Positions 6,920-36,064 of a DNA stretch of 64,000 bases are shown here, piece by piece. Under the pieces are notes generated by a model. That model was given only the letters and a program-made list of their open reading frames with translations, searched no databases and had not been told where the DNA came from. The stretch is from the NCBI RefSeq assembly GCF_001571345.1, contig NZ_BCTP01000003.1, positions 1 through 64,000 on the forward strand, read 5' to 3'. The position numbers and the translations under genes are program-made. Source of the DNA: Komagataeibacter xylinus NBRC 15237. GTDB taxonomy: Bacteria; Pseudomonadota; Alphaproteobacteria; Acetobacterales; Acetobacteraceae. Each line of letters starts with the position of its first letter. Positions within the stretch are counted from its first letter, which is position 1.

Positions 6920-8149
<1,230 letters not shown>

Positions 8150-17067: not shown

Positions 17068-17141
17068 TGGGGGATAGTTTAGCGGTAGAACTACCGGCTC
17101 TGACCCGGTCAGCCCTGGTTCGAATCCAGGTCCCCCAGCCA
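17068..17141 (+). tRNA. tRNA-Gln (anticodon CUG)
   Basis: A complete 74-base cloverleaf with encoded CCA. The acceptor stem is TGGGGGA with TCCCCCA, followed by G then CCA. The D arm is GTTT with GAAC around AGCGGTA, and the anticodon stem is ACCGG with CCGGT around loop CTCTGAC (anticodon CTG at 17100-17102). The T arm is CTGG with CCAG around TTCGAAT. It marks the left border of the accessory block. Confidence 0.95.
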
Positions 17142-17923: not shown

Positions 17924-19246
17924 ATGAACAGGATGATGAGCTTCGGTCTGTCTATGCGCTACCTCGGCTATCATGCGGCAAGTTGGCGTCATCCTGATGC
18001 AAACCCGCGTGGCGGCATGCAGTTCGCGCATTTTGCTGAAGTGGCCCGCAAGGCGGAAGCCGCCGGGTTTGACATGCTCTTCCTCGCGGATGGTATTGGC
18101 ATCCGTACCGTTGACAGCCCGGTGGGCGCGCTGGCCCAGACAGCCCAGACGGCCGATCTCGAGCCCCTGACCCTGCTGTCTGCCCTGTCGGCGGTGACAA
18201 CCAATATCGGCCTCGTGGCCACGGCCTCCACAACCTATAACGAGCCTTTTCATGTGGCGCGCAAATACGCCTCGCTTGACCGGATCAGTGGCGGGCGTGC
18301 CGGGTGGAATATCGTCACGTCATGGTCGGAGGCGGAAGCATGGAATTTCGGACGTGATACCCATCTGGGCTATGCCGAGCGCTACGAGCGCGCCTATGAA
18401 TTCGCCGATGTGGTCGAAGGGCTGTGGCATTCATGGGGCACGGACGCCATCGTGGCGGACAAGAAAACCGGCATTTTCCTTGATACCAGCCGCCTGCGCG
18501 TACTGAACCACAAAGGCCCGCATTTTCGCGTGCGGGGGCCGCTTGACGTGCCACCAAGCCCGCAGGGGCACCCGGTCATGGTGCAGGCGGGCGCATCCGA
18601 TGCGGGCATCGAACTCGCCGCGCGCAAGGCCGAAGTGGTCTATGCGCTGCCGCATGATTTGCAGATGGCCGAAAGCTATTCCCGCCGCCTGCGCGGCGCG
18701 CTCGAGCAGCATGGCCGCGACCCGCGCGGCATCCGCATCCTGGCGGGCATCACGCCCTATATTGGCGCGACCATGGCCGAGGCGCAGGAAAAATACGATG
18801 CTATGAATGCCCTGATCCTGCCGGAACTCGGGTTGTCCTATCTTTATGCCCAGTTGGGCGACCTCTCGGCTTTTCCGCTCGATGGCCCGGTGCCTGATCC
18901 GGTCGATCCGCGCGTGCGCAGTATTGCGCAGGGACTGATCACCATGGCGCGGTCACGCAACATGACCATCCGCCAGCTTTATAATTTCATTGCCGCCGGT
19001 TTTGGCTCGCGCGTGGTGATCGGCACGCCAGAAAGTATCGTAGATGAAATGCAGGAATGGTTTGAAACCGGGTTTGTTGACGGTTTCAATCTGTGCCCCG
19101 CATTGTTGCCGATGGATATTGATTCGTTCTCAAATCATATCCTGCCTGAACTACGCCGCCGGGGTCTGGCGCGCACGGGTTATGCAGGCTCCACATTACG
19201 CGCAAACCTGGGCCTGCCCATGCCGGGCTGCTGTTACCCCGCCTGA
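17924..19246 (+). CDS. NtaA/SnaA/DszA-type FMN-dependent monooxygenase (LLM class)
   Basis: A 440-residue bacterial luciferase-like flavin monooxygenase of the group that includes nitrilotriacetate, EDTA and dibenzothiophene-sulfone monooxygenases. These use FMNH2 from a separate reductase to oxygenate and often cleave N- or S-substituents. Family features are YHAASWRHPDA near the N-terminus, FDMLFLADG, GRAGWNIVTS, HKGPHFRVRGPL with SPQGHPVMVQAG, and GTPESIVDEMQEWFE. The ATG at 17924 with AGGA upstream fits family N-termini; upstream in-frame codons add an unconserved tail. It is the first gene of the accessory block. No flavin reductase (NtaB-like) gene is visible nearby. Substrate unknown. 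Confidence 0.85.
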   Translation: MNRMMSFGLSMRYLGYHAASWRHPDANPRGGMQFAHFAEVARKAEAAGFDMLFLADGIGIRTVDSPVGALAQTAQTADLEPLTLLSALSAVTTNIGLVATASTTYNEPFHVARKYASLDRISGGRAGWNIVTSWSEAEAWNFGRDTHLGYAERYERAYEFADVVEGLWHSWGTDAIVADKKTGIFLDTSRLRVLNHKGPHFRVRGPLDVPPSPQGHPVMVQAGASDAGIELAARKAEVVYALPHDLQMAESYSRRLRGALEQHGRDPRGIRILAGITPYIGATMAEAQEKYDAMNALILPELGLSYLYAQLGDLSAFPLDGPVPDPVDPRVRSIAQGLITMARSRNMTIRQLYNFIAAGFGSRVVIGTPESIVDEMQEWFETGFVDGFNLCPALLPMDIDSFSNHILPELRRRGLARTGYAGSTLRANLGLPMPGCCYPA

Positions 19247-19447
19247 GCACCGCAGGCATTTTAGGGTTCAGGCGCGTGACGGGAACGGCATGACGCAACG
19301 GGTTCCGCCCTGATGCGCGGGTGTCGCGCATGCCGCCGGTTCACGGGGGCGTATGGGGCCTGCCCGGTAACAATGGTTCTGCACATTCGCTGACAACATC
19401 AATATCGCCGTGCCGCCTTGGCGCGCAGGGCAGGGGAACGTCTCATC

Positions 19448-20761
19448 ATGCGGATATCCAACTGGAAGGCCGTTGTCGGCTCAATCTGCGGAAATGCCAT
19501 GGAATGGTATGATTTCATGGTCTTTTCCTACATGGTATCGCTCATCGGGCCGTTGTTCTTTTCGGGCGCGGATGTGGGCGCGCATGTCATCCTGCTCTCC
19601 ACCGCGCTTTTTGGTGTCGGGTTTGTAACCCGTCCACTCGGTGGCATCGTGCTCGGGGGATATGCCGACAGGCATGGCACCGCAGCGGCCATGGTGCTGG
19701 GCATGGGGATCATGGCGCTGTCCATCGCCCTGATCGCCTTCGCGCCAACCTATGCGCAGGCGGGTAGCGTGGGGGTGTGCTTTCTTGTAGCGGGCCGTCT
19801 GTTGCAGGGGTTCTCGGCCGGGGGTGAGTTTGCCACGTCCACCACGTACCTGATCGAGGCCGCGCCGCCGGGCCGCCGGGCCTTTTATGGGTCGTGGCAG
19901 ATGATGGGCCAGCTTTTTGCCCAGATCCTTGGTGGCACCGTTGGCTATGTCATTACCAGTGCGTTCACCCCCGGCCAGATTGCGGGCTATGCATGGCGCA
20001 TTCCGTTCCTGATCGGGCTGTTTATCCTGCCTGCCGTCCTGATCATGCGGCGCAGGACCATGGGGCAGGGGCAGGCAGCACGGCATCATGTTGCGGCCCG
20101 CCTGCCGCTTGCCGGGATCATGCGCGACATGGCGGCACAGTGGCGCGCCGTGCTGTCGGTCATGGGGCTGGTGTCAAGTACGTCCGTCTCGCTGTACGTG
20201 CTGTTTGGTTATACGGTAACCTATGCCACCCAGACGCTGCACCTGCCCATGAAAGGGGCGTATCTGGTGCAACTGTCTGCGGCACTGGGCATGATGCTGA
20301 TCGTGCCCGCAAGCGGGTGGCTGGCCGACAGGATCAGCGCGCGGCGCATGCTCTTCTGGGCGCTGTTTGTCTATTTTCTTGAAATCTGGCCGCTTTATGC
20401 ATGGCTGGTGGCCCGGCCATCGCTGCTGCGGCTGGTGGTCATGCAGGTCGGGCTTGCCATTCCCACCGCCGTGTTCCTTGCCACGTATTGCACGATTATC
20501 GTCACCGTGCTGACCGGCAGGCATCGGGTAACGACACTGGCGACTGCGCATAACATCGCGGTCATGGTTGTCGGCGGGCTGTCGCAGTTCGTTGTGACAT
20601 GGCTGCTGCATGTAACGGGAGCGGCGATTGCGCCCGCGTTCTTCGTGTCCGTGGTCATTGCGATGGGCACGGTCTCGGCCCTGTATCTTGTGCGCTCGGA
20701 GCATAAGGCGCCACGGTCGTCTTTCGTGCCCGATCCGCTTGCGGTGCGTAACGGAAAATGA
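19448..20761 (+). CDS. MHS-family MFS metabolite:proton symporter
   Basis: A 437-residue inner-membrane transporter with about 12 hydrophobic segments. The N-terminus has the MHS signature GNAMEWYDFMVFSYM, and loop 2-3 carries GGYADRHGTAAAM, the MFS motif A region. FSAGGEFATSTTYLIEAAP is also typical of this family (shikimate, citrate, proline/betaine and alpha-ketoglutarate carriers). I chose 19448 because AGGGGA lies about 12 bases upstream. Placed after the monooxygenase and before the regulator gene, it probably carries a substrate or product of the same pathway. Confidence 0.85.
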   Translation: MRISNWKAVVGSICGNAMEWYDFMVFSYMVSLIGPLFFSGADVGAHVILLSTALFGVGFVTRPLGGIVLGGYADRHGTAAAMVLGMGIMALSIALIAFAPTYAQAGSVGVCFLVAGRLLQGFSAGGEFATSTTYLIEAAPPGRRAFYGSWQMMGQLFAQILGGTVGYVITSAFTPGQIAGYAWRIPFLIGLFILPAVLIMRRRTMGQGQAARHHVAARLPLAGIMRDMAAQWRAVLSVMGLVSSTSVSLYVLFGYTVTYATQTLHLPMKGAYLVQLSAALGMMLIVPASGWLADRISARRMLFWALFVYFLEIWPLYAWLVARPSLLRLVVMQVGLAIPTAVFLATYCTIIVTVLTGRHRVTTLATAHNIAVMVVGGLSQFVVTWLLHVTGAAIAPAFFVSVVIAMGTVSALYLVRSEHKAPRSSFVPDPLAVRNGK

Positions 20762-20768
20762 ACCGATG

Positions 20769-20796
20769 GCCTCTCCACTGCTTGCGGGGGAGAGGC
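20769..20796. terminator. hairpin between convergent genes
   Basis: GCCTCTCC at 20769-20776 pairs with GGAGAGGC at 20789-20796. It lies between the ends of the converging MFS and Lrp-type genes. There is no T-run, so it may stabilise 3' ends instead of terminating on its own. Confidence 0.4.
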
Positions 20797-20817
20797 TCGT
20801 GACGCGCCAGGAGCGCC

Positions 20818-21267
20818 CTAGCGCTGGCGCCGTGTGGACAGGATCATGGAGGACATGGTCCGCTCCACGCCATCAAGGCTGCCAATCTCGTCAATCACGG
20901 TATCAAGCCGCGTGATGGAACGCGCTTCCACCATGACGATCATGTCGAAATTGCCACTGACCGAATAGATCGTGCGCACCTCGGGGATGCGGCGCAGCAG
21001 GGTCTGTACGGAGGCGGTATATTTGGGGCTGAGTGTCACCAGCATATGCGCGCAGACATAGCTCTCGGCGTAGGCTGCGGCCAGCCGCAGGGAATAGCCT
21101 TCGATCACGCCCTGGCGCTCAAGCTTTTCCAGCCGGCTCTGCGCGGTTGAGCGCGAAATGCCCAGCCTGCGCGCCACGAGTGCTACGGGCATGCGGGCGT
21201 TTTCGCGCAGCAGGTTGATCAGTTCCTCTTCTGCCGGGTTGATCGTCGTTTTGCCTGATATGCTCAT
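20818..21267 (-). CDS. Lrp/AsnC-family transcriptional regulator
   Basis: A 149-residue regulator with an N-terminal winged helix-turn-helix (ELINLLRENARMPVALVARRLGISRSTAQSRLEKLERQGVIEGY, about residues 15-58). A C-terminal ligand-binding RAM domain follows (VRTIYSVSGNFDMIVMVEA). Such proteins sense amino acids and act as dimers or octamers. The ATG at 21267 (MSISGKTTINP) is preferred to 21321, which adds an unconserved leader. It is the only minus-strand gene in the accessory block and is divergent from the saccharopine-dehydrogenase-like gene. It is a likely local regulator of that promoter and its own. Confidence 0.9.
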   Translation of the reverse strand: MSISGKTTINPAEEELINLLRENARMPVALVARRLGISRSTAQSRLEKLERQGVIEGYSLRLAAAYAESYVCAHMLVTLSPKYTASVQTLLRRIPEVRTIYSVSGNFDMIVMVEARSITRLDTVIDEIGSLDGVERTMSSMILSTRRQR

Positions 21268-21281
21268 TATTATGCCTGATA
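21252..21281. promoter_or_regulatory. candidate operator: two TGCCTGATAT direct repeats
   Basis: Identical 10-mers at 21252-21261 and 21272-21281 are spaced exactly 20 bases apart, about two helical turns. They flank the start codon of the Lrp-type gene and lie about 90 bases before the divergent dehydrogenase gene. Same-face repeats suit a multimeric Lrp-type regulator. This is pattern only. Confidence 0.35.
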
Positions 21282-21371
21282 TAAATGTCGTTATAGTCAG
21301 ATTTATGCTACGATCTGGCAACGATGCATGTCACTCTTTTTCATGTCCAACCGACGGATTAAGGATTGAGC

Positions 21372-22454
21372 ATGACGAAAGAGATCGCAGTAATCGGGGC
21401 TGGGCGGATTGGTTCCGTTATTGCCGATATGCTTGCGGATACAGGTGATTATACTGTCACCCTGTTTGATGCCTCCAGCCAGATCATCGCTGCCCTGCAG
21501 CCGCTTGCCGGTGTCATGGTGCAGCAGCTCGACATTACGGATGACGCCATGCTGGCGCAGGCGCTGCATGGCAAGTTCGCCGTGCTGAGTGCGGCCCCTT
21601 TCTACCTGACCGCGCGCATTGCGCAGGTGGCGGTCGAGGCTGGCGTGCATTATCTTGACCTGACCGAAGATGTTGCCAGCACCGGCCGGGTGCGGGCCCT
21701 GGCGCAGGGCGCACGCACGGCCCTGATCCCGCAATGCGGTCTTGCTCCCGGTTTCATCACCATCGTGACATCATGGCTCGCAGCACAGTTCGACACCCTG
21801 CACGATGTAAGCATGCGCGTGGGGGCGCTGCCCGAATATCCGTCAAACATGCTGAACTATAACCTCACATGGTCGCCTGATGGGGTCATCAACGAATATT
21901 GCGAACCGTGTGACGCGATTGTCGATGGCGTGATGCGCAAGGTCACGCCGCTGGAAAACGTGCAGGAGTTTTCCATGGATGGCACGCGTTATGAGGCGTT
22001 CAATACGTCTGGCGGCCTTGGTTCCATCTGCGAAATGCTCGAAGGCAGGGTGCGCAACCTCAACTACCTGACCATTCGCTACCCCGGCCATGCCCATCTG
22101 ATGAAATTCCTCCTGCGCGACCTGCGGCTTGCCGAGCGCCGCGATGTGATGAAGGACATTCTGGAATACGCCGTGCCAGGCACCATGCAGGACAAGATCA
22201 TCATTTTCGTCACGGCCACCGGGCACAAGGATGGCGCGTTCATGCAGAAAAGCTATGCCAGCACCATTCATGGCATGGACATTGGCGACCGCCCACGCAC
22301 CGCGATCCAGGTCACGACGGCAGCCGGGATCTGCACGGTGCTCGACATGCTTGCCAAAGGGCAGATTGCGGATGCGGGCTTCGTATATCAGGAAAACATC
22401 AAATACGAATCCTTCATCAACAACCGTTTTGGCCGCGTTTACGCACAGGGCTGA
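21372..22454 (+). CDS. saccharopine-dehydrogenase-like oxidoreductase
   Basis: A 360-residue NAD(P)-binding protein of the saccharopine dehydrogenase/lysine 6-dehydrogenase fold. The N-terminal Rossmann motif is AVIGAGRIGSVIADML, followed by VLSAAPFYLTARIAQVAVEAGVHYLDLTED, typical of the family. The C-terminal catalytic domain begins near residue 125 (LIPQCGLAPGFITIV). Members act on secondary-amine (C-N-C) substrates such as saccharopine or oxidise an amino group to an imine. The start is the ATG at 21372; a TTG lies two codons upstream. It diverges from the Lrp-type gene, suggesting amino-acid-responsive control. Exact substrate unknown. Confidence 0.82.
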   Translation: MTKEIAVIGAGRIGSVIADMLADTGDYTVTLFDASSQIIAALQPLAGVMVQQLDITDDAMLAQALHGKFAVLSAAPFYLTARIAQVAVEAGVHYLDLTEDVASTGRVRALAQGARTALIPQCGLAPGFITIVTSWLAAQFDTLHDVSMRVGALPEYPSNMLNYNLTWSPDGVINEYCEPCDAIVDGVMRKVTPLENVQEFSMDGTRYEAFNTSGGLGSICEMLEGRVRNLNYLTIRYPGHAHLMKFLLRDLRLAERRDVMKDILEYAVPGTMQDKIIIFVTATGHKDGAFMQKSYASTIHGMDIGDRPRTAIQVTTAAGICTVLDMLAKGQIADAGFVYQENIKYESFINNRFGRVYAQG

Positions 22455-22649
22455 CAGGGCGGAATGGTCGGGAACATCCGTGCCTATTCTGTAAAGGAAT
22501 AGTTTGATGAGATGTTTTCCCTTCCATATTGTTACTTATACGATATGATATTCTCAAATTGAACGTAGTCATTTCCGTGCTTTGTTTACTTGTTTATGGA
22601 AATAAAAAAGTAATTTCAAAGTATGGATCTATGCAGCAGGAAAAGAAAA

Positions 22650-23621
22650 ATGAACAAAATCTGGGCCGGTAGCCAGCCGCAGGTCTGTGTGGGTCATGCT
22701 TATTATGACCTCAAGGGTGAGATGGAAAAGCGGCCCAACCCGCCGCCATGCACCCAGGTCAAGACGCTGAAGGATCTTGAGGCGGTCATCGGTGAGGCGG
22801 AAGTGCTGGTCATTTCCATGCTGTGGAAGAACCATCTCCTTGACCTTGCCCCCAAGCTCAAACTGGTGCAGTCGGTCAGTGCCGGTGTCGATCATTACGA
22901 TCACGACAAATTTCGCGCGCGTGGCATCCATCTGTGCAGTGCGCAGGGCGTGAACGCCAATGCCGTATCCGACCATGCGCTGGCCCTTATGCTCAGCCTG
23001 TCGCGCCGTCTGTACGAAGCGCGTGACGACCAGCATAATTCCTTCTGGCGCCCGACCAGCACCGACCAGGCGACCCGCCTGCAGGAGCTTAACGGCAAGA
23101 CCGTCCTGATCGTGGGTTTTGGTGGCATCGGTGCCCGTGTCGCGCGTCTGTGCCAGGCGTTTGGCATGAACGTGATCGCCATGCGCCGCCGTGTCACGGC
23201 GGATGCTCCGGCAGGCGTGCGCATGATCACCAATGACAAGTTTATCGAAACCCTGCCGCAGGCCGACATGGTCGTGCTGACCTGCCCGCTCACGCCCGAG
23301 ACGTTTGGCATGGTGGGCGTGGAAGCACTCGCCGCCATGCGTCCCGATGCGCAGTTGATCAATGTCGCGCGCGGCAAGGTGGTGGACGAGCAGGCGCTGA
23401 TCACGGCGCTCGAGAAAGGCCAGATCGCTGGCGCCGCGCTTGATACCTTTGTGGAGGAGCCGCTGCCTGAATCTTCTCCGCTGTGGAAAATGCCCAACGT
23501 GATCGTTACGCCGCATGCCGCGGGCGAGACCCAGTTTTATGAGCGGAATGTGGTTGATATTCTGATGAAGAATATCAGCGCTCTTGAAAATGGCACTGCG
23601 TTGACAAACCAGATTGTCTGA
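22650..23621 (+). CDS. D-2-hydroxyacid dehydrogenase (NAD-dependent)
   Basis: A 323-residue cytosolic member of the D-isomer-specific 2-hydroxyacid dehydrogenase family, which interconverts 2-oxoacids or glyoxylate and D-hydroxyacids. The nucleotide motif is LIVGFGGIGARVARLC. The catalytic triad is readable as Arg in INVARGKVVDEQAL, Glu in DTFVEEPLPE and His in VTPHAAGETQFYER. The start at 22650 (MNKIWAGSQ) has AGGAAAAG upstream and is favoured over 22623. An AT-rich 195-base leader precedes it. In this context reduction of glyoxylate or another oxoacid released by the oxidases nearby is plausible but not shown. Confidence 0.85.
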   Translation: MNKIWAGSQPQVCVGHAYYDLKGEMEKRPNPPPCTQVKTLKDLEAVIGEAEVLVISMLWKNHLLDLAPKLKLVQSVSAGVDHYDHDKFRARGIHLCSAQGVNANAVSDHALALMLSLSRRLYEARDDQHNSFWRPTSTDQATRLQELNGKTVLIVGFGGIGARVARLCQAFGMNVIAMRRRVTADAPAGVRMITNDKFIETLPQADMVVLTCPLTPETFGMVGVEALAAMRPDAQLINVARGKVVDEQALITALEKGQIAGAALDTFVEEPLPESSPLWKMPNVIVTPHAAGETQFYERNVVDILMKNISALENGTALTNQIV

Positions 23622-23738
23622 CCCTTCGAAGCGATTGATTTATATCGGATACCAATTAATATCGACTTGATAACGAAATGGGTCGCGCGGCTATCCTTGC
23701 CATAATGGAATAGTCGCGCAGGACAAGGAGAGTACGAA

Positions 23739-24584
23739 ATGACAACGCGCCGTGATCTTGTTTCCAAAATCGCTTTGGGGTCCGTGGTGGCGGCGGGTGC
23801 ATTGCGTGCTGCTCCTGCCCGCGCCGACAGCGCGGGCGAAAACCGCCTCGACCGCATCCGTCGCACAGGCAAGATGCGCACGGCGGCGGTCGTGGGGGCG
23901 GAGCCGTTTTTTCATAAGGACATCATGGGCGGCGGCTGGTCGGGCGCGTGCGTCTCCATGGCGCAGGATCTTGCAAAGTCGCTTGGTGTTGCGTGTGAAA
24001 TCGTCGATGCCCAGTGGGGCGGGGCGGTGATGGACCTGCAGAGCGACAAGATCGATGTCATGTTCGCCCTCAGCCCCACGCCGCAGCGCGGGCTGGTGGT
24101 GCAGTTCAGCAACCTCATGATCGACAACACCTTTACCGCCATCGTGCGCAATGGCCTTGAGGTGAGCAAGTGGGAAGACCTGAACAGGCCTGAAGTCCGG
24201 GTCGCGTTCGATGTGGGGTCTTCGCACGATATTTTTGTCAACCGTGCACTGCCGAAGTGCACCAAGGTGGCCGTGCAGTCTCCTACCGATACGATCATGG
24301 CGTTGCAGACCGGCCGTGCCGACTGCGTGGTGCAGGTCATCGCGATTGCGGCCGTGATGCATGCGCGCGCGCCCAACGTGGGCACCCTGATCGTGCCGCA
24401 GCCCATGATCGGTCAGCCCACCTGTGTCGGGGTGCCGGTTGAAAGCGATCCCCGCTGGCTGACCTATATCAATAACTGGCTGCTCTACAGCCGCTCGGAG
24501 GGAATTATCCGCCAGTGGATGTTCGAGGCCATGACAAGCCAGGGCGTAAAGATCGAGAGCCTGCCGCCGGGCCTCAGTTTCTGA
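23739..24584 (+). CDS. amino-acid ABC transporter substrate-binding protein
   Basis: A 281-residue periplasmic binding protein of the family 3 (polar amino acid) type. The N-terminus MTTRRDLVSKIALGSVVAAG has a twin-arginine motif and ends APARADS, so export is probably by Tat. The mature domain shows WGGAVMDLQSDKIDVMFA and GSSHDIFVNRALP, typical of the fold. AAGGAG precedes the start. It is followed by the permease and ATPase genes, forming a complete three-gene importer. The C-terminal RQWMFEAMTSQGVK matches family ends. Ligand unknown. Confidence 0.88.
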   Translation: MTTRRDLVSKIALGSVVAAGALRAAPARADSAGENRLDRIRRTGKMRTAAVVGAEPFFHKDIMGGGWSGACVSMAQDLAKSLGVACEIVDAQWGGAVMDLQSDKIDVMFALSPTPQRGLVVQFSNLMIDNTFTAIVRNGLEVSKWEDLNRPEVRVAFDVGSSHDIFVNRALPKCTKVAVQSPTDTIMALQTGRADCVVQVIAIAAVMHARAPNVGTLIVPQPMIGQPTCVGVPVESDPRWLTYINNWLLYSRSEGIIRQWMFEAMTSQGVKIESLPPGLSF

Positions 24585-24633
24585 TTGCCATCGTGGTGAA
24601 GAGTGGGGTCAACATGCGCGAAAGTAGCCGATA

Positions 24634-25290
24634 ATGTCTTACCAGTGGGATTTTGGCCTTGTCTGGCATTACGCACCACTATTGGGAACCGGTATTGAAT
24701 ATACCCTGGGCCTTACGGTTGTTACTTCCGTAATCGGCATGGTGATCGGCACCTGCCTCGCCCTGTGCCAGCAGAGCCGGATGTGGTTCATATCCGTGCC
24801 GCTGGGCATGGTGTCGGAAGTGTTCCGATGTACGCCATCGCTGGTGCAACTGATCTGGTGCTATTACGCGCTGCCCATCGTGCTGGGCATTACCCTCTCG
24901 CCCATGGCCGCGGCCCTGCTGGCCCTGTCGATCTATGGGGGCGTGTTTTACGGCGAGATCTTTCGCGCGGGGCTGCGTTCGATCGATCCGGGGCAGTGGG
25001 ATGGCGCGCGCGCGCTGGGCATGACGTCATGGACCATGATGCGTCGCGTCATCCTGCCGCAGGTGCTGCGGCGCATGGTGGGGCCGATGGTCAGCCAGAC
25101 GGTGCTGCAGCTCAAGAATACATCGCTTGTTTCCGTCGTGACGGTGCCGGATCTTGTCTATCAGGGGCAGATGGTTGCTTCGGCCACCTATCGCCCGCTG
25201 GAAGTATACACGACCATTGCCATTCTTTATTTCCTGATCCTCTTCCCCCTGACCCAGCTGTCTCGGCTGCTGGAACGGCGGTGGGCCTGA
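24634..25290 (+). CDS. amino-acid ABC transporter permease (HisMQ type)
   Basis: A 218-residue inner-membrane permease with about five hydrophobic segments. The EAA loop is present as [46 protein letters not shown] is typical of polar-amino-acid permeases. Only one permease gene is present, so it probably works as a homodimer, as in GlnP-type systems. It begins 49 bases after the binding-protein gene. Confidence 0.9.
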
Positions 25291-25315
25291 TGCGATCCGT
25301 GGCGGAGAATTCATA

Positions 25316-26089
25316 ATGTCGCAACAGCCTCCGATGATCCAGATCACCAATCTCAGCAAGGCCTACGGCAAGAATACCGTGCTGCATGATATCTCGCTGG
25401 ATGTGCCGCAGGGCGGGAGCGTGGCGCTGATCGGGCCGAGCGGGTCGGGCAAGTCAACACTGCTGCGCTGCATCAACCTGCTTGAAGAGCCAAGTGCGGG
25501 CAGCATCCGCGTTGACAGCCAGGTCATGGAATTCGGGCCGCGCAGCCAGCGCCCCGGCGGTGCCAGGCTTGCCGGTTTCCGGGCCGAGACTGGCATGGTG
25601 TTCCAGTCCTTCAACCTGTTTCCCAACATGACGGTGATCGAGAACGTCATGGCCGGGCCGCTTTATGTCAAGCATGTGCCACGCGATGCGGCGCGCGCGC
25701 AGGCGCTTGAACTGCTTGATCGCGTGGGCATGGCGCACAAGGCGGATGTTTCGCCCTCCAACCTGTCGGGCGGGCAGAAGCAGCGTGTCGCCATCGCACG
25801 GGCTTTGGCCATGCAGCCCAAGGTCATGCTGTTTGACGAGGCGACCTCCGCACTCGATCCCCAGCTTGTGGGTGAGGTGCTTGGCGTCATGCGCGACCTT
25901 GCGGCGGCTGGCATGACGATGGTTGTCGTAACCCATGAAATGGCGTTTGCGCGTGATGTTGCCGATACGGTTGTGTTCATGAGTGGTGGCTACGTGGTGG
26001 AAAAAGGCCCGGCCCATGACGTGATCGAGAACCCGCAGGAAGACAGGACCAAAGAATTCCTTCGTCATTTTCACGTCGGTCGTAACTGA
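25316..26089 (+). CDS. amino-acid ABC transporter ATP-binding protein (GlnQ type)
   Basis: A 257-residue ATPase that powers the importer. The Walker A motif is GPSGSGKST, the signature is [16 protein letters not shown], and Walker B is [13 protein letters not shown] with H-loop [11 protein letters not shown]. The gene follows the permease by 25 bases. All catalytic motifs are intact. The C-terminus reads [11 protein letters not shown], as in many GlnQ/HisP-type subunits. Confidence 0.93.
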
Positions 26090-26121
26090 AAACCATCAAT
26101 TCCTGTGCGGAGATGAAAGTC

Positions 26122-27390
26122 ATGTCGCAACATGTTGTTGTTGTCGGGTCCGGCATTGTCGGCACCGTGGTGTCGATTGCCCTAGCCCGCAAGGGGCACC
26201 GGGTGAGCGTTATCGGGGCGGACCAGCCCGACTCGTGCGAGATGGCCAGCTACGGCAATGCCGGCTGGCTCAATCCGGGTTCGGTCGTGCCACTGTCCAT
26301 GCCCGGCCTGTGGCGCAAGGTGCCCGAATACCTGCTCAACGCCAATGGTCCGCTCACGCTGCGCCTGTCTGCCGTGCCGCAACTGGCCTCGTGGCTGGTG
26401 CGCTTCATGGCGGCGGGCTGCACGCCACGCCGGGCGCGCGCCATAGCGGCGGCCCTGCGGCCCTTCCTGCATGATGCGCTGGAGCGGCACGAGGCCCTGG
26501 CCAGGGAGGCGGGTGTGCCGGAGATGATCAAGGGCGGCGGCCTGCTGATCGTGTATCCGGACCGCGCGGCCTATGGGGCGGATGCGCTTGGCTGGTCGAT
26601 GCGGCGCGACAATGGCGTGGCATGGCGTGAGCTTGAAGGCGAAGAACTTCGCACGCTGTGCCCCGGCCTGAGCGAACGTTATCAGTTCGGCGCCCTGATT
26701 ACCGATGGTGGCTACTGCACCAGCCCGGGCGGTTATACCAGCGCGCTGGCAACCTATGCCGCAGGGCTTGGGGTGACGCAGGTGAGCGGGCGTGTCAGCG
26801 GCTTTCGCAAAAGTGGCGGGCAGGTGCTGGCGGTGGAGCATGCCGGTGGCGAGATCGCCTGTGACCGCGTGGTGATTGCAGGCGGTATCGGCACGACGGA
26901 ACTGGCGCGCATGCTGTCTGATACGGTGCCGCTGGTCAGCGAGCGCGGCTACCATGTGCAGGTATCGGCGCAGGATGTGGCGCTGCCGGTCCCGACCATG
27001 ATGTCGGATCTCAAATTCGGCATTACCCCGATGGGCAACGAGATCCGCGGGGCAGGGCAGGTGGAGTTCGCCCGCCGTGGCCGCGCGCCGGACTGGCGGC
27101 GCGCGCGCATCATTCTCGAATGCATCCGTGCCTCCTTTCCGTCAGCCCGGATCGAGAGCTTTGAAAAAGTGGCGCGCTGGATGGGCAACCGCCCCTCCAC
27201 GCCTGACTGCCTGCCGGTCATCGGGGTGTCGCCCCATGCATCCAATGTCGTCTATGCCAGCGGGCACGGGCATCTTGGGCTGGTCAGTTCGCCCTATACG
27301 GCCGATATCGTGGCGGACCTGATCGATGGCGTTTCGCGCACCGACATCAAGCCCTACGACCCGGCGCGCTTTTGCCGCTTTCGCCTGTAA
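26122..27390 (+). CDS. DadA-like FAD-dependent D-amino acid dehydrogenase/oxidoreductase
   Basis: A 422-residue flavoprotein of the DAO fold. The dinucleotide motif is VVVVGSGIVGTVVSIALARKGHRVSVI, followed by ASYGNAGWLNPGSVVPL as in DadA proteins. The C-terminal segment GNRPSTPDCLPVIG and SGHGHLGLVSSP completes the flavin site. Relatives oxidise D-amino acids or secondary amines such as iminodiacetate to imines that hydrolyse to oxoacids. The ATG at 26122 has GGAG at a good distance; an ATG at 26113 is also in frame. Its place directly after the ABC importer suggests it acts on the imported compound. Confidence 0.85.
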   Translation: MSQHVVVVGSGIVGTVVSIALARKGHRVSVIGADQPDSCEMASYGNAGWLNPGSVVPLSMPGLWRKVPEYLLNANGPLTLRLSAVPQLASWLVRFMAAGCTPRRARAIAAALRPFLHDALERHEALAREAGVPEMIKGGGLLIVYPDRAAYGADALGWSMRRDNGVAWRELEGEELRTLCPGLSERYQFGALITDGGYCTSPGGYTSALATYAAGLGVTQVSGRVSGFRKSGGQVLAVEHAGGEIACDRVVIAGGIGTTELARMLSDTVPLVSERGYHVQVSAQDVALPVPTMMSDLKFGITPMGNEIRGAGQVEFARRGRAPDWRRARIILECIRASFPSARIESFEKVARWMGNRPSTPDCLPVIGVSPHASNVVYASGHGHLGLVSSPYTADIVADLIDGVSRTDIKPYDPARFCRFRL

Positions 27391-27413
27391 GCGCGCGGGG
27401 GAGTGGAGCGCCT

Positions 27414-28802
27414 GTGCCTGAGCAAATGACAACAAGCCCTCCGCGCCCGGCACCATACGGGCATGTCATGGCCATGGCAGCCATTGTCATGGCCGTGCTG
27501 CTGTCGGTCCTCGACTATGCGGTTGCCAATATCGCCCTGCCCACCATCACGCGGGAACTCGGGGCCAGCCCTTCGGCTGGCGTGTGGGTGGTCAATGCCT
27601 ACCAACTGGCGGGTTGCGCGCTCATGCTGCCACTGGCCACATGGTCGGAAAAGATTGGCGCCGTAAAGCTGTGCCAGATCGGGCTGGTCATTCTCATGGC
27701 GGGTTCCGTGCTGTGCGCATGGGCGCCGAACCTGCCGGTCATGGCGGTGGCGCGCATGACCCAGGGCGTGGGGGGCGCGTGCATCATGGCGGTCTATGCC
27801 GCACTGGTGCGTGCTGTCTGCCCGCCGCAGCGCATTGGCCAGGGGCTGGCCATGACGGCGCTGGCCACTTCGCTGGGGGTGGCGCTCAGCCCATCGGTCG
27901 CGGCACTGATCCTGATGTTGGGGTCATGGCGGTGGCTGTTTCTGTTCAACCTGCCCTGTGGCCTGATCACGCTGGCATTCGTGCTGAAGTGCCTGCCGCC
28001 CATTCAGGGCCAGCCCCGGCGGATGGATGGCCTGGCCATCGGGTTGAATATCGTCACGTTTACCGCCTTTCTCATCGGGGCCGACATGCTGGCGCATGGC
28101 GAGGCGGCTGGCATTGGCGCGGGACTGGTGCTGGCAGGCGTGGTGGCGATGGGTGTTCTGGTCATGCACCAGAAAAACATGGCTACCCCCATGCTGCCGC
28201 TTGACCTGCTGGGCATCCCGGCCTTCCGCACCGGGTTCGTGACGTGTTTCCTGGCCTACGTGGCCGCGAATTTCTACATGATCTCCATTCCCTTCACGCT
28301 GAATGGCCTGTTTCATCGTTCCGCCATTGAAACGGGGCTGCTCATCATGCCCTGGCCAGGTAGCATGGTGCTGATGGCCCCGGTGGTCGGCCGTCTGGCG
28401 GACCGGTATTCCGCAGGCTGTCTGGTCTCGATCGGGCTGTTCATGACCGGGGTTGGGTTCCTGCTGGTCAGGCTCCTGCCGCCAGATGCCGGCAATCTCA
28501 ACATCATGTGGCGTTTCGCGGTGGCGGGCATGGGCTACAGCCTGTTCACGTCACCCAATAACCGTTCAATGGTTGTGGCGTCTCCGGCGAGCCGCTCATC
28601 AAGTGCCAGCGGCATGATTTCCATCAGTCGTATTCTTGGCCAGACCTTTGGCGCAATCGGGGTGGCCTTCATCCTGGCCCGGGTCAGGGTCAATCCGGCG
28701 CTGCACTGCCTTGAATGGGCAACAGCGACCGCCTGGGTCGCGGCACTCATCAGCGCCTCGCGCCTGCGGCGCCCCCAAGCAGGGAGAATGGTTTCGTCGT
28801 AA
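27414..28802 (+). CDS. DHA2-type MFS transporter (14-TM multidrug/metabolite exporter family)
   Basis: A 462-residue membrane protein with about 13-14 hydrophobic segments. SVLDYAVANIALPTITRELGASP in segment 1 and VWVVNAYQLAGCALMLPL in segment 2 are typical of the DHA2 group, and ARMTQGVGGACIMA marks segment 4. I choose the GTG at 27414, five bases after GGAG; an ATG at 27426 is also possible but has poorer spacing. It follows the FAD enzyme by 23 bases. Role may be efflux of a pathway product or inhibitor. Confidence 0.82.
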   Translation: MPEQMTTSPPRPAPYGHVMAMAAIVMAVLLSVLDYAVANIALPTITRELGASPSAGVWVVNAYQLAGCALMLPLATWSEKIGAVKLCQIGLVILMAGSVLCAWAPNLPVMAVARMTQGVGGACIMAVYAALVRAVCPPQRIGQGLAMTALATSLGVALSPSVAALILMLGSWRWLFLFNLPCGLITLAFVLKCLPPIQGQPRRMDGLAIGLNIVTFTAFLIGADMLAHGEAAGIGAGLVLAGVVAMGVLVMHQKNMATPMLPLDLLGIPAFRTGFVTCFLAYVAANFYMISIPFTLNGLFHRSAIETGLLIMPWPGSMVLMAPVVGRLADRYSAGCLVSIGLFMTGVGFLLVRLLPPDAGNLNIMWRFAVAGMGYSLFTSPNNRSMVVASPASRSSSASGMISISRILGQTFGAIGVAFILARVRVNPALHCLEWATATAWVAALISASRLRRPQAGRMVSS

Positions 28803-28826
28803 ATCAAGAGGGAAGGGGAGACGGCC

Positions 28827-29750
28827 ATGTTGTTACCACGTCGGGTTATACCATCGATTTCAGAAATGATTGCTTTCGAGGCTGTGGCGCGGCATGAAAA
28901 CTTTAGCGCGGCGGCGGAAGAACTGTATCTGACCCAGGGCGCCATAAGTAAACAGATACGCAGTCTGGAACTGACGCTTGGGGTTTCCCTGTTTGACCGG
29001 CGGCGCAAGCGCCTGGTCCTGACCCGCCAGGCACGTTTGCTCCTGCCTTCCATTGCCTCGATCATCGAGCAGATCAGCAGCACGACCTACAAGATCATCT
29101 CGTCCTCGGACAAGACGAACAATATAAACCTTTCCGTTTTTTCAACTTTTTCCTCACGCTGGCTTATTCCACGTTTTGCCCGGCTGTTTGCGCAGTATCC
29201 TGATTTCAATGTCAATGTTTCCACTGTTTTTGAAGCATTCACCTTTGATGACACGGATTGCGATGTCGCCATTCATTACGGTCAGGCCGTATGGCCGAAT
29301 GGTATTCTCTATCATCTGTTTGACGAGATCATCATACCGGTGTGCAGCCCGGCCTATCGGGAGAAGACGGGTTTCAGCAAACCCGAAGATTTTAACCGGA
29401 TCAACCTGATACAACTCACCACCCGCCCGGGACTGTGGGAATACTGGCTGTCACATGCGGGGATCAAGACCAGCAAACCATTGCATGGCAATATATTTGA
29501 CCAGTTCAATGCAACCATAGAAGCCGCATTGAGTGGGCTTGGTGCTGCCCTCGTGCCGCATATTTTCGTTGAGCGCGAATTGCGCGAGGGCAAGCTCGTC
29601 GTGCTGTCAGATGAGTTGCTGAAAGGACAGGGCGCTTACTATGCTGTAATCCCGACCGAGAAACAGAATAACGCATCCATCATGCAGTTTATTGAATGGA
29701 TCAGGAAAGAAAGTGCGGAATACCGGATCAACACCGCATTTCATGAATAA
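28827..29750 (+). CDS. LysR-family transcriptional regulator (GcvA-like)
   Basis: A 307-residue regulator. The N-terminal helix-turn-helix reads FEAVARHENFSAAAEELYLTQGAISKQIRSLE (about residues 17-48), followed by the LysR linker helix. The effector domain has VSTVFEAFTFDDTDCDVAIHYG and GLGAALVPHIFVERELREGKLV, close to the GcvA/AmpR branch. Unusually for LysR genes it is in the same direction as its neighbours, not divergent. It probably governs the pathway or the following RidA and TonB-receptor genes. Confidence 0.9.
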   Translation: MLLPRRVIPSISEMIAFEAVARHENFSAAAEELYLTQGAISKQIRSLELTLGVSLFDRRRKRLVLTRQARLLLPSIASIIEQISSTTYKIISSSDKTNNINLSVFSTFSSRWLIPRFARLFAQYPDFNVNVSTVFEAFTFDDTDCDVAIHYGQAVWPNGILYHLFDEIIIPVCSPAYREKTGFSKPEDFNRINLIQLTTRPGLWEYWLSHAGIKTSKPLHGNIFDQFNATIEAALSGLGAALVPHIFVERELREGKLVVLSDELLKGQGAYYAVIPTEKQNNASIMQFIEWIRKESAEYRINTAFHE

Positions 29751-29762
29751 AAAGGAACGAAA

Positions 29763-30116
29763 ATGACAGACGTACAATACATCGATCAGAATGCCCGTCG
29801 CTCGCGCGCGGTCATTGCAGGCAATACGGTTTACCTTGCGGGCTGCACGGCGGCTGACCGTTCACGCGATGCCGCGGGCCAGACGGCGCAGATCCTTGAA
29901 ACGATCGAAGGCGTGCTTGCCCAGGCGGGTACGGATAAGGGCCATATTGTAAATGTTACGATCTGGCTGTCGGACATGAAGAATTTTGATGCGATGAATG
30001 GCGTTTATGACAACTGGATTGTCAAGGGACGTGCGCCCGCGCGATGCTGTGGGGAAGTCAGGCTAGCATTGCCCGACATTCTGGTGGAAATCATGGTTGT
30101 GGCGGTCAAGCCGTAA
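29763..30116 (+). CDS. RidA-family (YjgF/YER057c/UK114) protein
   Basis: A 117-residue protein of the Rid family, which hydrolyses reactive enamine/imine intermediates or acts on related compounds. Conserved elements are GNTVYLAGCTA, QTAQILETIEGVLAQAGTDKGHIVNVTIWLSDMKNF and the C-terminal RAPARCCGEVRLALPDILVEIMVVA, with the active-site arginine in GEVRLAL. This C-terminal form resembles Rid subfamilies outside RidA proper. It starts 12 bases after the LysR gene and is followed by a strong terminator. Its presence fits imine products from the FAD oxidoreductase. Confidence 0.88.
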   Translation: MTDVQYIDQNARRSRAVIAGNTVYLAGCTAADRSRDAAGQTAQILETIEGVLAQAGTDKGHIVNVTIWLSDMKNFDAMNGVYDNWIVKGRAPARCCGEVRLALPDILVEIMVVAVKP

Positions 30117-30565
30117 TACCGGGTTTTCATTTGCATAAAGCCCGGCAGGGGCGGATATGTTCCGCCCCTGTTTTCTGTCCAGACTGTTTTTAACAGCGGT
30201 GTTTGTCGAAGCGTTGTGAGCAGGGCTGCACCAGAAACGTACCTGTTGTTTCGGAACTGGCCTGTTTCAGGTGGCCTCGCAAAAATAAAAAATCGTCCCT
30301 GTAACGTGTAATAACGTTATTGACTTGAAACGATATGAATTGCGTGTTGTAAACGCTACATATTGTTAAAAATAAGACAAAAAATAATGGTTGGGTGAAT
30401 TTTTTTCCGCGTTAGTTTCTAGCCTCCCGGCCAATATATGTTATCGTAACTTAATCGAAACGTAATTGCAGGCGCTAAGGTGACAGCAAGCGGTTCGACT
30501 TTCTTTTAAGTGCGCTGGAAGTGTTATCGCGTCGGCCTGTAACCCGTAAGCTGGAGAGCAATGTT
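30117..30565. other. AT-rich intergenic leader before the TonB receptor gene
   Basis: About 450 bases without a gene. It contains the terminator at 30146-30174, a perfect 12-base palindrome AATAACGTTATT at 30310-30321, and a second dyad GTTATCGTAAC near 30430. It also has a long AT-rich tract. It probably holds a regulated promoter for the TonB-dependent receptor. Confidence 0.6.
30146..30174 (+). terminator. rho-independent terminator after the RidA gene
   Basis: CAGGGGCGGA and TCCGCCCCTG form a perfect 10-base stem around TATGT, followed by TTTT. It ends the transcript of the block's central operon and isolates the TonB-receptor gene. Confidence 0.9.
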
Positions 30566-33049
30566 GTGGTGAAACGACTTATATGGAAAAAAAGTCTGTT
30601 TTCCGCTGGGGCGGTTCTTATGGTCGGGAGTGCCCTTACGCCACTCAGGGCCGGGGCACAGACCGCGTCCTCGCCTGTCATGACTTCGAGCCATGCCAAG
30701 CCGAAACCGGTGCCTCGCGCGCATGCTTCCACCGCCACTGCGGCGCATGTCGCGCTGCACCCGGAATCCATTTCCGTGTCTGGCGTGCGGCGGGTCAACT
30801 CGGCCCTGTCCGATTCAACGCAGGTGCACAGCACGACTGCTGTGCAGGTCGTCAGCGCCGAACAGCTCAAGCAGACTGGCGAGACCAACGTCATGGCCGC
30901 GCTCGAGCAGTTGACGCCGTCACTCAGTTCGCCGTCCTTCAGTGGTCTTGGCGCCAATGGTTTCGTGCGCACCATGCAGTTGCGCAACCTGTCGGCTGAC
31001 CAGACCCTTATTCTCGTCAATGGCAAGCGGCGGCATCTGACGGCAAACTTCAATGCCAATGCCGGGCCGAACAGCGGCACCGAACCGGCTGACATTTCGC
31101 TGATCCCCATTACGGCAATCGACCATGTCGAGGTCATTACCGATGGCGCAAGCGCGCTGTACGGCCAGGAAGCCATTGCGGGCGCGGTCAATATTGTCCT
31201 GAAAAAAGATACTCATGGTGGTGTCTTCAATATTCAGAACAGTGGCTATTACGCGGGTGATGGCCAGGCGGTTGATGGCTCGGCCAGCTACGCCATACCG
31301 CTTGGCCATAACGGCGGCTTCATGGACCTCGCGGGTCAGGTGACGCACAGCCAGCCCACCAACCGTTCAGGCATTTATGAAAAGGCGGGGGATCCGCAGT
31401 CGGGGCAGAACCTGAACCGCATGATGGGCATGGGCCGCCAGATGCTCGAGACTTTCTCGGCAAACGGCGAAATGCCGATCACGCCCGATGTCAAGGCCTA
31501 CCTGACCGCCACCTATTCGCATCGTGACTACGAAACGCCGCAGACCATCCGTTCGGCTGCAAACGTCAACACCATTACCGAATTCTACCCCAACGGGTTC
31601 CAGCCCGTCATGGGCCTGACGGAAGATGACTTTCAGGTCAATGGCGGCTTCCGTGGCAAGGATTTCCATAAATGGTCATGGGACACATATGTAACGTATG
31701 GCCGCGACTACCAGAACTACCGCACGCTTGATTCGGATAACGCGACCTACGGGCTGAACAGCCAGACCTCGTTCTACGATGGCTCCAACATTGCAACGGA
31801 ACTCGTGGCCGGTGGCAAGATGTCGCGGAACTTCAAGGTCGGGTTCCTGCCCAAGCCGATCAACTTCATGTTCGGCGGCGAATATCGTCATGATACGTTC
31901 CAGCTTGAAGCCGGTGACCTGCAGTCCTGGTCGGATGGTGGCATGCGGGCAGGGGCCACGCCGGGTGCTGGTGGTCATGCCGGTGCGGCTCCGGTCGATG
32001 CCAGCAACAGCTCGCGTGATGTATATGACGGGTACGCCAACGTTGACCTGTACGTTACGCCCAAGTGGGAATGGACCCTTGGCGGGCATGTCGCGCATTA
32101 TTCCGATCTCAACAAGACAGCGGAAACCGGCACGGTCGGCACGCGCTACAACTTCAACAAGCGCTGGGCCATCCGGGCCAGTGTTGGCGTGGGCTACCGC
32201 CCGCCAACGCTCGGGCAGGAAAACTACTTCATCGTAACCGACTTCCCCACCTATGCCACATCGCAGCTGCCAGCGAATGGTGCCGCGGCCAAGGCGCTCG
32301 GTTCCAATGGGCTGAAGGGTGAAACGTCACGCAACTACAGCATCGGTGTCGATGCAACGCCGCTTGATAACTGGCACCTCTCGGCCAACCTGTACCGCAT
32401 CGCCATTAACGACCGCATGGCGAACTCGACGCAGTTCACCAGCTATAATGGTACGCCGATTGGCGACATCCTGAAGAACTACGGCCTGGCGAGCGTGACA
32501 TACGGGCAGTATTACATGAATGCGGCCAATACACTGACCTATGGCGGCGACGTGACGACCGACTATACGCTGCGTGTCGGGCGGATGGGCACGCTGCGCT
32601 TCAACATGGGCATCAACTTCGCTGATACCGAGATTTCCCATTACAATGTCTCGCAGCAGCTCTTTAACAGTTATGCCCAGAACACCCTGCTGCACACGGC
32701 CCCGAAAAACCGCGAGATGGTGGGCGTGCAGTGGAAGTGGAAGCGCCTGACAATCCGCGCGGAAGAAGAGCGCTACGGCACGGTCACCTATATTGCCAGC
32801 CCAAGCCTGCCGACTTCGCAGTGGACCGTGGTCAAGCCCGGCTACATCACCAACCTTGAAGTCGGTTACGATGTTCTTGACCGCCTGCATCTTGTCGCTG
32901 GCGCCAACAACCTGTTCAACTACTACCCCAACCAGGTCAACCATGCGGTATCGGTCAGCACGTCGAACGGGTCTTACAAGTATCCGTTCAACTCACCTTA
33001 TGGCTTCATGGGTGGTTTCTACTATGTCAAGGCGTCCCTGCAGTTCTGA
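30566..33049 (+). CDS. TonB-dependent outer-membrane receptor
   Basis: An outer-membrane beta-barrel of about 827 residues that imports chelates or other large ligands using TonB energy. A signal peptide (KRLIWKKSLFSAGAVLMVGSA, ending GAQTA) comes first. The plug domain follows, with a TonB-box-like ISVSGVRRV, SAEQLKQTGETNVMAALEQL and LVNGKRRH. The C-terminus has DRLHLVAGANNLFNYYPN and ends VKASLQF with terminal Phe. No extended N-terminal signalling domain or sigma factor is seen. The start is one of two adjacent GTG codons (30566 or 30569) behind GGAGAG. Ligand unknown; context suggests a modified amino acid or chelator. Confidence 0.9.
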   Translation: MVKRLIWKKSLFSAGAVLMVGSALTPLRAGAQTASSPVMTSSHAKPKPVPRAHASTATAAHVALHPESISVSGVRRVNSALSDSTQVHSTTAVQVVSAEQLKQTGETNVMAALEQLTPSLSSPSFSGLGANGFVRTMQLRNLSADQTLILVNGKRRHLTANFNANAGPNSGTEPADISLIPITAIDHVEVITDGASALYGQEAIAGAVNIVLKKDTHGGVFNIQNSGYYAGDGQAVDGSASYAIPLGHNGGFMDLAGQVTHSQPTNRSGIYEKAGDPQSGQNLNRMMGMGRQMLETFSANGEMPITPDVKAYLTATYSHRDYETPQTIRSAANVNTITEFYPNGFQPVMGLTEDDFQVNGGFRGKDFHKWSWDTYVTYGRDYQNYRTLDSDNATYGLNSQTSFYDGSNIATELVAGGKMSRNFKVGFLPKPINFMFGGEYRHDTFQLEAGDLQSWSDGGMRAGATPGAGGHAGAAPVDASNSSRDVYDGYANVDLYVTPKWEWTLGGHVAHYSDLNKTAETGTVGTRYNFNKRWAIRASVGVGYRPPTLGQENYFIVTDFPTYATSQLPANGAAAKALGSNGLKGETSRNYSIGVDATPLDNWHLSANLYRIAINDRMANSTQFTSYNGTPIGDILKNYGLASVTYGQYYMNAANTLTYGGDVTTDYTLRVGRMGTLRFNMGINFADTEISHYNVSQQLFNSYAQNTLLHTAPKNREMVGVQWKWKRLTIRAEEERYGTVTYIASPSLPTSQWTVVKPGYITNLEVGYDVLDRLHLVAGANNLFNYYPNQVNHAVSVSTSNGSYKYPFNSPYGFMGGFYYVKASLQF

Positions 33050-33124: not shown

Positions 33125-33163
33125 TATCCGCTTGTGAATTTTTTACAGGTCCAGGAGAGTGAT

Positions 33164-36012: not shown

Positions 36013-36064
36013 TCTGGTCCGTATCTGACATTGCGTAAACCTGAAATTGTCTAGGATAACCTCA

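Follow-up and report, generated by a model that had tools for sequence, protein, structure and literature searches.

We analyzed a 64,000-nt stretch of the Komagataeibacter xylinus NBRC 15237 genome (contig NZ_BCTP01000003.1, positions 1 to 64,000 of the forward strand; hereafter the window) and found that it carries a horizontally acquired catabolic island, located directly 3' of a tRNA-Gln gene and reaching from position 17144 to about 38860 within a draft genome of 3.62 Mb. The island brings together an NtaA/DmoA-family monooxygenase (MO), a DadA-like FAD oxidase (DadA), a D-2-hydroxyacid dehydrogenase (2HADH), an amino-acid ABC importer made up of solute-binding protein (SBP), permease (PERM) and ATPase (ATP), a RidA-family protein, a TonB-dependent receptor (TBDR), an aminotransferase (AT), a racemase-type protein (RACE), a short-chain dehydrogenase (SDR), a saccharopine-dehydrogenase-fold enzyme (SDH), two transporters (MFS1, MFS2), Lrp- and LysR-family regulators and an AbrB-family membrane protein. 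Its gene content, its borders and its conservation as a unit identify it as a transferred catabolic cluster, and we found no description of this combination of genes in the open-access literature. Our preferred reading, to which we give a probability of roughly 0.45, is that the cluster serves the oxidative catabolism of a substituted, perhaps lysine-linked amino acid by import, dealkylation, racemization and D-specific deamination.

Among 19 genomes of the genus the island is carried by the window strain and one sister genome, G214. DadA of G214 is 98% identical to that of the window, while the next best match in the genus reaches 36%. All six other genus members that were read across the site (L078–L083) have it empty, with the end of the tRNA-Gln gene (window 17141–17143) followed by sequence corresponding to window position 38861 or 38901 onwards; in five of the six an inverted AbrB gene with 78–80% DNA identity occupies the site. 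GC content is 59.2% between 17144 and 38860 compared to 64.2% and 65.2% on the flanks. Twenty window proteins were scanned with Pfam and NCBIfam, and no integrase was matched among them, the stretch 17144–17923 not being part of the scan. A 76-nt direct repeat near both island ends (17357–17432 and 38702–38777, copies 83% alike) was rejected as a pair of attachment sites, since its core of about 30 nt is dispersed across genus relatives. None of 72,556 known plasmid records covers 80% of the island, although near-genome records were possibly left out of this set; of 46 records with matches, nine are Komagataeibacter plasmids. A right edge at 30116 was likewise rejected, because the TBDR-AT-RACE-SDR block belongs to the unit. 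The latter extends to about 37.2–38.7 kb and beyond 30116 also includes an MR/MLE gene and AbrB.

We determined the conservation of the cluster starting from SBP, which has matches of at least 60% identity in 10 of 397 family genomes including the window, the other nine at 60–98%. The core AT-RACE-SDR-2HADH-SBP-PERM-ATP-DadA-MFS2-LysR is present in eight of these ten genomes (eight loci in genera g1, g43, g49 and g31, window and sister genome being two of them). The remaining two (G1021, G174) show solely SDR-SBP-PERM-ATP-DadA in the stretches fetched. The cluster genomes are related to each other, as four of the eight loci belong to one genus and two more come from sister genomes. TBDR accompanies the core at all eight loci, in two types 33% identical to each other, and AbrB at seven, split into two pieces in G981. 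MO and MFS1 occur together at six loci, both fragmentary in G939 (65% and 23% coverage), RidA at six and SDH at two, namely the window and G214. The initial annotation had pointed out the joint occurrence of monooxygenase, DadA-like, 2HADH, ABC importer and RidA genes. All of these are open reading frames, and the recurrence of the core at eight loci of four genera indicates that MO, DadA, importer and RidA belong together.

In G048, a member of another genus, about 24 kb contain 15 island genes (33–71% identity) in the same orientation, interrupted by one gene of opposite orientation between AbrB and AT. This cluster led us to reject a reading of MO as unconnected to DadA. One open frame of G048, labelled Y, was set aside; read by eye it is apparently antisense to an FAD oxidoreductase gene, and it has no Pfam match. 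Gene order in the window differs from that of G048, with SDH-Lrp as an added module. This would suit a patchwork in which the modules MO-MFS1, Lrp-SDH, ABC-DadA and AT-RACE-SDR were gathered at one tRNA site and share no common pathway, an explanation we consider rather improbable in view of the 15 co-directional genes in a single stretch of G048. In genus g43 (L245, 2663–6432, and L248) a flavin monooxygenase-like gene, two AhpD-like genes and a Tat-signal FAD oxidoreductase lie divergent to the TonB receptor of the cluster; these names come from reading the translations by eye, without a family search.

The role of an iminodiacetate oxidase, which the initial annotation had proposed for DadA, finds no clear support in the surroundings of its relatives. 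We inspected 80 DadA-centred loci (L095–L174), the best 80 of 578 relatives, so that the counts describe the closest ones; many Acetobacteraceae are among the relatives. A racemase gene with 34–85% identity to the queries was present in 49 of the 80 loci, in 45 of them within 3.5 kb of DadA, and an MO homologue (39–40%) in three. The racemase is of the Asp/Glu family in 40 loci, of the MR/MLE family in ten and of both in one. SBP-permease-ATPase-DadA operons on named plasmids, mostly read from their annotation, contain an MR/MLE racemase in Tistrella, Shinella and Thioclava and an Asp/Glu-family racemase in two Agrobacterium plasmids. They continue 3' of DadA with a thiamine pyrophosphate (TPP) enzyme or with 2HADH and an aminotransferase. 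NF005679 (Asp/Glu type) and MR/MLE are unrelated families replacing each other near a DadA-type gene, and the use of two unrelated folds in one role argues that DadA acts on a D-amino acid formed from the L form or together with it. With 189.5 bits against the D-amino acid dehydrogenase model PRK00711 (cut-off 383), the window protein is by its score a relative of DadA rather than DadA proper.

The cluster resembles alphaproteobacterial racemase and DadA operons (LysR-SBP3-permease-ATPase-racemase-DadA, followed by a TPP enzyme or by 2HADH and AT) in sharing SBP, PERM, ATP, DadA, RACE, 2HADH, AT and LysR. In contrast to these, the acetobacterial form is marked by TBDR, MO, MFS1, AbrB and MFS2, and the island gave no match to a TPP enzyme. 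On the Thioclava plasmid (L090, 12509–15527) DadA-2HADH-aminotransferase is followed by a 450-residue protein that has no Pfam match and by an amine-oxidase-like flavoprotein (PF01593). Annotations in Ketogulonicigenium resemble those of these Thioclava genes after DadA.

RACE itself has a racemase-superfamily fold, as judged from its predicted structure, with two conserved cysteines. Two cysteines mark the racemases of the Asp/Glu racemase superfamily, and C93 and C209 of RACE are invariant in all nine proteins compared. The predicted fold (mean pLDDT 84) is matched best by arylmalonate decarboxylase, followed by glutamate, hydantoin and aspartate racemases, with query-normalized TM-scores of up to 0.60 in the listed rows.

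On this basis we propose the following order of events. A substituted amino acid would be imported by TBDR and the single-permease ABC importer, perhaps with the help of MFS1. MO would remove the substituent oxidatively by cleaving a C-N or C-S bond, and the freed or remaining amino acid would then be processed at its alpha carbon. RACE may interconvert the L and D forms, the interrupted enolase-superfamily gene representing a second racemase-like gene, and DadA would convert the D form to an imino acid. Going by their families, RidA, AT and 2HADH would act on the resulting imino and 2-oxo acids, RidA by hydrolyzing the imine and AT together with 2HADH by converting L-amino acid, 2-oxo acid and D-hydroxy acid into one another. 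The Lrp-flanked SDH, as a putative lysine 6-dehydrogenase, would turn L-lysine into piperideine-6-carboxylate (P6C), which the genome's P6C dehydrogenase (P6CDH) and HglS-like enzymes, encoded elsewhere, could carry on towards 2-oxoglutarate. All substrates and activities, the order of steps and the lysine link of the MO cluster are what we infer. The probability given above overlaps with those of the two dealkylation routes discussed below, as the preferred reading leaves the cleaved bond open.

The bond cut by MO was approached through its relatives. We scored a profile of seven MO relatives against solved structures. The highest-scoring chains were 3sdo (439.5 bits), CmoJ/YtnJ (435), 7e36 (424) and DszA (394), followed by dimethyl-sulfide monooxygenase (330), alkane monooxygenase (298), hexachlorobenzene dehalogenase (267), riboflavin lyase (262) and EmoA (245). 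A second comparison of MO with solved chains gave a similar order. The top chain 3sdo, which scores slightly above CmoJ, is an uncharacterized protein labelled NTA monooxygenase, and CmoJ is the best characterized solved relative; the YtnJ/MoxC chains we take to be CmoJ. CmoJ and DszA, both of which cleave C-S bonds, rank above EmoA, and among the full-length solved relatives the lowest score is that of EmoA, a result that holds for EmoA alone, as NtaA and SnaA were not among the compared sequences. These scores speak against a close relation to EmoA and suggest no firm placement among the sulfone enzymes either.

The initial annotation had read the locus as a possible N-dealkylation pathway. 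In this scheme an aminopolycarboxylate or N-carboxymethyl amino acid is degraded as in nitrilotriacetate (NTA) and ethylenediaminetetraacetate (EDTA) degraders: MO acts on a tertiary or secondary amine and sets glyoxylate free, the next group is removed by an oxidase of the DAO family, and 2HADH reduces the glyoxylate. MO does belong to the TIGR03860 family, named NtaA/DmoA. Furthermore, three of the eight loci (G048, G981, G1032) have beside MO an enzyme of the DAO family that most resembles sarcosine and dimethylglycine oxidases, although with NCBIfam scores below the cut-offs, as a monooxygenase-plus-oxidase pathway would need, and 2HADH reaches 180 bits with the glyoxylate reductase model (cut-off 455). 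The described EDTA pathway proceeds through EmoA and then IdaA with release of glyoxylate at each cleavage (PMC7312458). The window, however, has no counterpart of the sarcosine-oxidase-like gene, the NTA/EDTA route as described involves neither a racemase nor an aminotransferase, 2HADH relatives follow DadA also in operons lacking MO, and the score of EmoA is far below that of CmoJ. We therefore regard the full N-dealkylation scheme as unlikely. What stands of it is the grouping of the genes, the reading as oxidative catabolism of an amino-acid derivative and the monooxygenase-oxidase pair in three relatives; the nearness to EmoA does not.

The catabolism of EDTA and NTA in Chelativorans sp. 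BNC1 (EppA, EmoA/EmoB, IdaA; PMC7312458) shares with the island an NtaA/DmoA-family monooxygenase and an ABC importer, and with three relatives of the window cluster a DAO-family oxidase. Unlike BNC1, the scanned island proteins include no match to a flavin reductase or an SBP_bac_5 importer. The island instead adds racemase, aminotransferase, TonB receptor and lysine dehydrogenase, and its MO is nearer to CmoJ than to EmoA. Absence of a flavin reductase partner from the locus had been noted before, and a scan of 20 window proteins indeed gave no match to one; no search was made elsewhere in the genome. The polar-amino-acid ABC importer also noted before is present at 23739–26089, yet it is a single-permease SBP_bac_3 system, unlike the SBP_bac_5 type, which we take to be that of EppA. 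With MO distant from EmoA and no reductase partner matched in the cluster, membership in the NTA/EDTA pathway is not established.

As CmoJ is the nearest characterized monooxygenase, the S-alkylcysteine salvage of Bacillus subtilis (CmoJ/YxeK) offers the other comparison. CmoJ/YxeK systems use a polar amino-acid ABC importer, as the island does, and N-acetyltransferase and deacetylase genes have their place in the CmoJ/YxeK operon. CmoJ cleaves an alkylcysteine sulfoxide, and the salvage includes N-acetyltransferase and deacetylase steps (PMC10863075). An S-substituted cysteine might accordingly enter through a cystine-type importer and be S-dealkylated by MO, with DadA disposing of a D-cysteine derivative. 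The cystine systems that are the best models of permease and ATPase, both below their cut-offs, would fit this, as would the neighborhood of the closest plasmid MO (66.7% identity; Roseomonas haemaphysalidis plasmid, L084, 8204–13765), which is co-directional with another ABC importer and a gamma-glutamyltransferase gene. At E 1e-60, MO matches occur in 737 of the 72,556 plasmid records, e.g. on plasmids of plant-associated bacteria. However, in contrast to CmoJ/YxeK, Pfam identified no acetyltransferase or deacetylase in the 20 window proteins scanned, and the island adds an amino-acid racemase and D-amino-acid oxidation. S-dealkylation also leaves TBDR, racemase and lysine dehydrogenase unexplained, and similarity within the MO family does not fix the bond that is cut, so we consider this route doubtful as well. 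On these comparisons neither C-N nor C-S cleavage is favored for removal of the substituent.

We also assessed the link to lysine, which comes from SDH. P6CDH is the direct neighbor of SDH at 9 of 19 family loci (69–73% identity to the reference, rows with P6CDH below 50% and AT below 45% identity having been dropped beforehand); the reference itself passes the equivalog cut-off (815.7 vs 730 bits). P6CDH was over the cut-off in 18 of 19 SDH carriers and in 4 of 41 other genomes (Fisher 1.4e-10), a value describing a hand-chosen set of 60 genomes with SDH carriers over-represented and not a random sample. In G098, counted as a carrier lacking P6CDH, a contig ends with part of a P6CDH gene. Foldseek, run on a low-confidence model of SDH (pLDDT 64), ranks first 3abi, a structure titled L-lysine dehydrogenase. 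SDH aligns at 50% identity with the N-terminal domain of a protein from Ruegeria pomeroyi; a lysine 6-dehydrogenase of Silicibacter pomeroyi, possibly the same protein, has been used in engineering (PMC8861201). The assignment of SDH as a relative of lysine 6-dehydrogenase, with that activity predicted, is well supported by these comparisons. Both the P6CDH context and the fold led us to reject an opine or saccharopine enzyme acting on C-N-C bonds, as which SDH had been fitted into the N-dealkylation scheme; the gene forms a separate module.

SDH family, divergent Lrp and the P6CDH neighbor in relatives resemble the route of lysine 6-dehydrogenase plus P6CDH (lysDH, Silicibacter pomeroyi). The window differs from this route in that its SDH stands apart from P6CDH and is joined to the MO-DadA-racemase cluster. 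AmaA, AmaB and HglS of Pseudomonas putida belong to the lysine/P6C route, and similarly the K. xylinus genome contains AmaA-like, P6CDH and HglS-like genes in a row on another contig (L185, contig C18 4000–23900, genes at 7215–11506). P6CDH scores 806.8 bits (cut-off 730), the AmaA-like oxidase 434.6 (cut-off 600) and the HglS-like gene 478.4 on a partial query (cut-off 550). This row of a putative L-pipecolate oxidase, P6CDH and a putative 2-oxoadipate dioxygenase probably represents a lower pathway of lysine and pipecolate. HglS converts 2-oxoadipate to D-2-hydroxyglutarate (PMC7286885). Within the genus, P6CDH is over the cut-off in 5 of 19 genomes, comprising both island carriers and 3 of the 17 others (p 0.058, not significant).

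Combinations of SDH with DadA are also found outside the cluster. Rhizobium rhizogenes (L099, L169) and R. lusitanum (L087) have SDH and Lrp in the vicinity of SBP-PERM-ATP-DadA, and in Bradyrhizobium (L108, L110) SDH and Lrp form one co-directional run with these genes; in total SDH is near DadA in 4 of the 80 DadA-centred loci, plus L087. P6CDH is found near the DadA operons of L089, L094, L108 and L110, HglS in three and YdiJ with an aminotransferase in two. In L089 a relative of AT (54% to window AT) lies between YdiJ and P6CDH with HglS adjoining. At the genus level SDH is present in 3 of 4 cluster genera vs 9 of 98 others (p 0.005), and when g1 is left out, where SDH is the island's own, in 2 of 3 vs 9 of 98 (p 0.03); these values mix different genome sets, and kinship was not removed.

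The same observations would suit a pathway that simply consumes D- and L-lysine or 2-aminoadipate, with MO an unrelated passenger. Importer, racemase and DadA would feed in D-lysine and SDH would take L-lysine, AT being a 2-aminoadipate aminotransferase and 2HADH oxidizing D-2-hydroxyglutarate. The SDH-P6CDH link, the position of the AT relative in L089 and the P6CDH and HglS-like genes of the own genome all point in this direction. MO and TBDR, however, accompany the core in other genera (6/8 and 8/8 loci), so MO can hardly be a passenger, and the best solved matches of SBP are cyclohexadienyl dehydratases, both reconstructed and present-day, and general amino-acid binders. We thus judge plain lysine use to be an unlikely explanation.

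Several results weigh against our preferred reading of a substituted, perhaps lysine-linked amino acid as substrate. MO is absent from the stretches read at two of the eight cluster loci. Surroundings of 19 MO homologues (57–66% identity; drawn best first from 35 genomes with a match, own genome left out) show eight beside oppDF-type ABC genes and just one, that of G048, with island genes, and three have weak MFS1- and 2HADH-like neighbors (29–37%). In 31 of the 80 DadA loci no racemase was present, 20 of the 80 stretches being shorter than 20 kb. Racemase, DadA, AT and 2HADH would suit an acidic amino acid equally well as lysine. SDH lies inside the cluster only in the window and G214, and at E 1e-80 it finds no match in G1032 and G1019, two of the eight cluster genomes. 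As SDH is this rare in the cluster, lysine need not be a product of the MO cluster.

A narrower version of the preferred reading is the TonB-dependent use of an N-substituted amino acid of natural origin, either metal-chelating or of the glycation type, such as an aminopolycarboxylate metallophore or N-carboxymethyl-lysine. TonB and ABC uptake would be followed by NtaA-family N-dealkylation, cofactor-free racemization and D-specific deamination, with released lysine handed directly to lysine 6-dehydrogenase. We regard this as a long shot; if true, the degradation of synthetic chelators would have its natural counterpart here. A literature search on bacterial catabolism of carboxymethyllysine gave nothing usable.

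NtaA/DmoA-family monooxygenases are common, but to our knowledge few have known natural substrates. In three genera MO is tied to an importer, a racemase-type protein independent of pyridoxal phosphate (PLP), a DadA-type oxidase and a TonB receptor. This association confines the choice of substrates to amino-acid derivatives, which can be tested on a single binding protein and a single gene cluster. The replacement of one racemase family by the other near a DadA-type gene likewise provides an assayable prediction for the uncharacterized family NF005679.

Table 1. Features of the island and its left border in window order, with the family matches on which each assignment is based.
Feature	Position	Strand	Basis
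tRNA-Gln (CTG)	17068..17141	+	ARAGORN; left border of the island, related genomes diverge right after
MO, NtaA/DmoA-family FMN-dependent monooxygenase	17924..19246	+	TIGR03860 513.7 bits, cut-off 279.7; subfamily model, not NTA-specific
MFS1, MFS transporter of the metabolite:H+ symporter group	19448..20761	+	TcuC-like model 284 bits, below cut-off 445
Lrp/AsnC-family regulator, divergent to SDH	20818..21321	-	PF01037, HTH_24; best NCBIfam LysM 87.7 bits, below cut-off 180
SDH, saccharopine-dehydrogenase-fold enzyme	21366..22454	+	PF03435 and PF16653, both over cut-offs
2HADH, D-2-hydroxyacid dehydrogenase family	22623..23621	+	PF02826, PF00389
SBP, solute-binding protein SBP_bac_3	23739..24584	+	PF00497
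PERM, amino-acid ABC permease	24634..25290	+	PF00528; best NCBIfam cystine permease, below cut-off
ATP, amino-acid ABC ATPase	25316..26089	+	PF00005; best models TcyN and GlnQ, below cut-offs
DadA, DadA-like FAD dehydrogenase/oxidase	26113..27390	+	PF01266
MFS2, DHA2/EmrB-type MFS transporter	27372..28802	+	TIGR00711 192.5 bits, below cut-off 230.2
LysR-family regulator, GcvA-like	28827..29750	+	PF00126, PF03466; GcvA model 265.5, cut-off 288
RidA/YjgF-family protein	29763..30116	+	PF01042; TIGR00004 66.2 bits, below cut-off 106.25
TBDR, TonB-dependent receptor	30521..33049	+	PF00593, PF07715
AT, class I PLP aminotransferase, aspartate aminotransferase-like	33134..34384	+	PF00155; best solved relative 6f35 aspartate aminotransferase B
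RACE, Asp/Glu/hydantoin racemase superfamily	34411..35178	+	PF01177; NF005679 307.5 bits, cut-off 231
SDR, short-chain dehydrogenase	35233..36012	+	PF13561
MR/MLE enolase-superfamily gene, one premature stop	36047..37187 (end approximate)	+	PF02746, PF13378 on first part
AbrB-family membrane protein	37553..38656	+	PF05145 286.5 bits

In the interrupted MR/MLE gene of the window homology runs on past the premature stop, and the sister genome G214 carries an intact copy.

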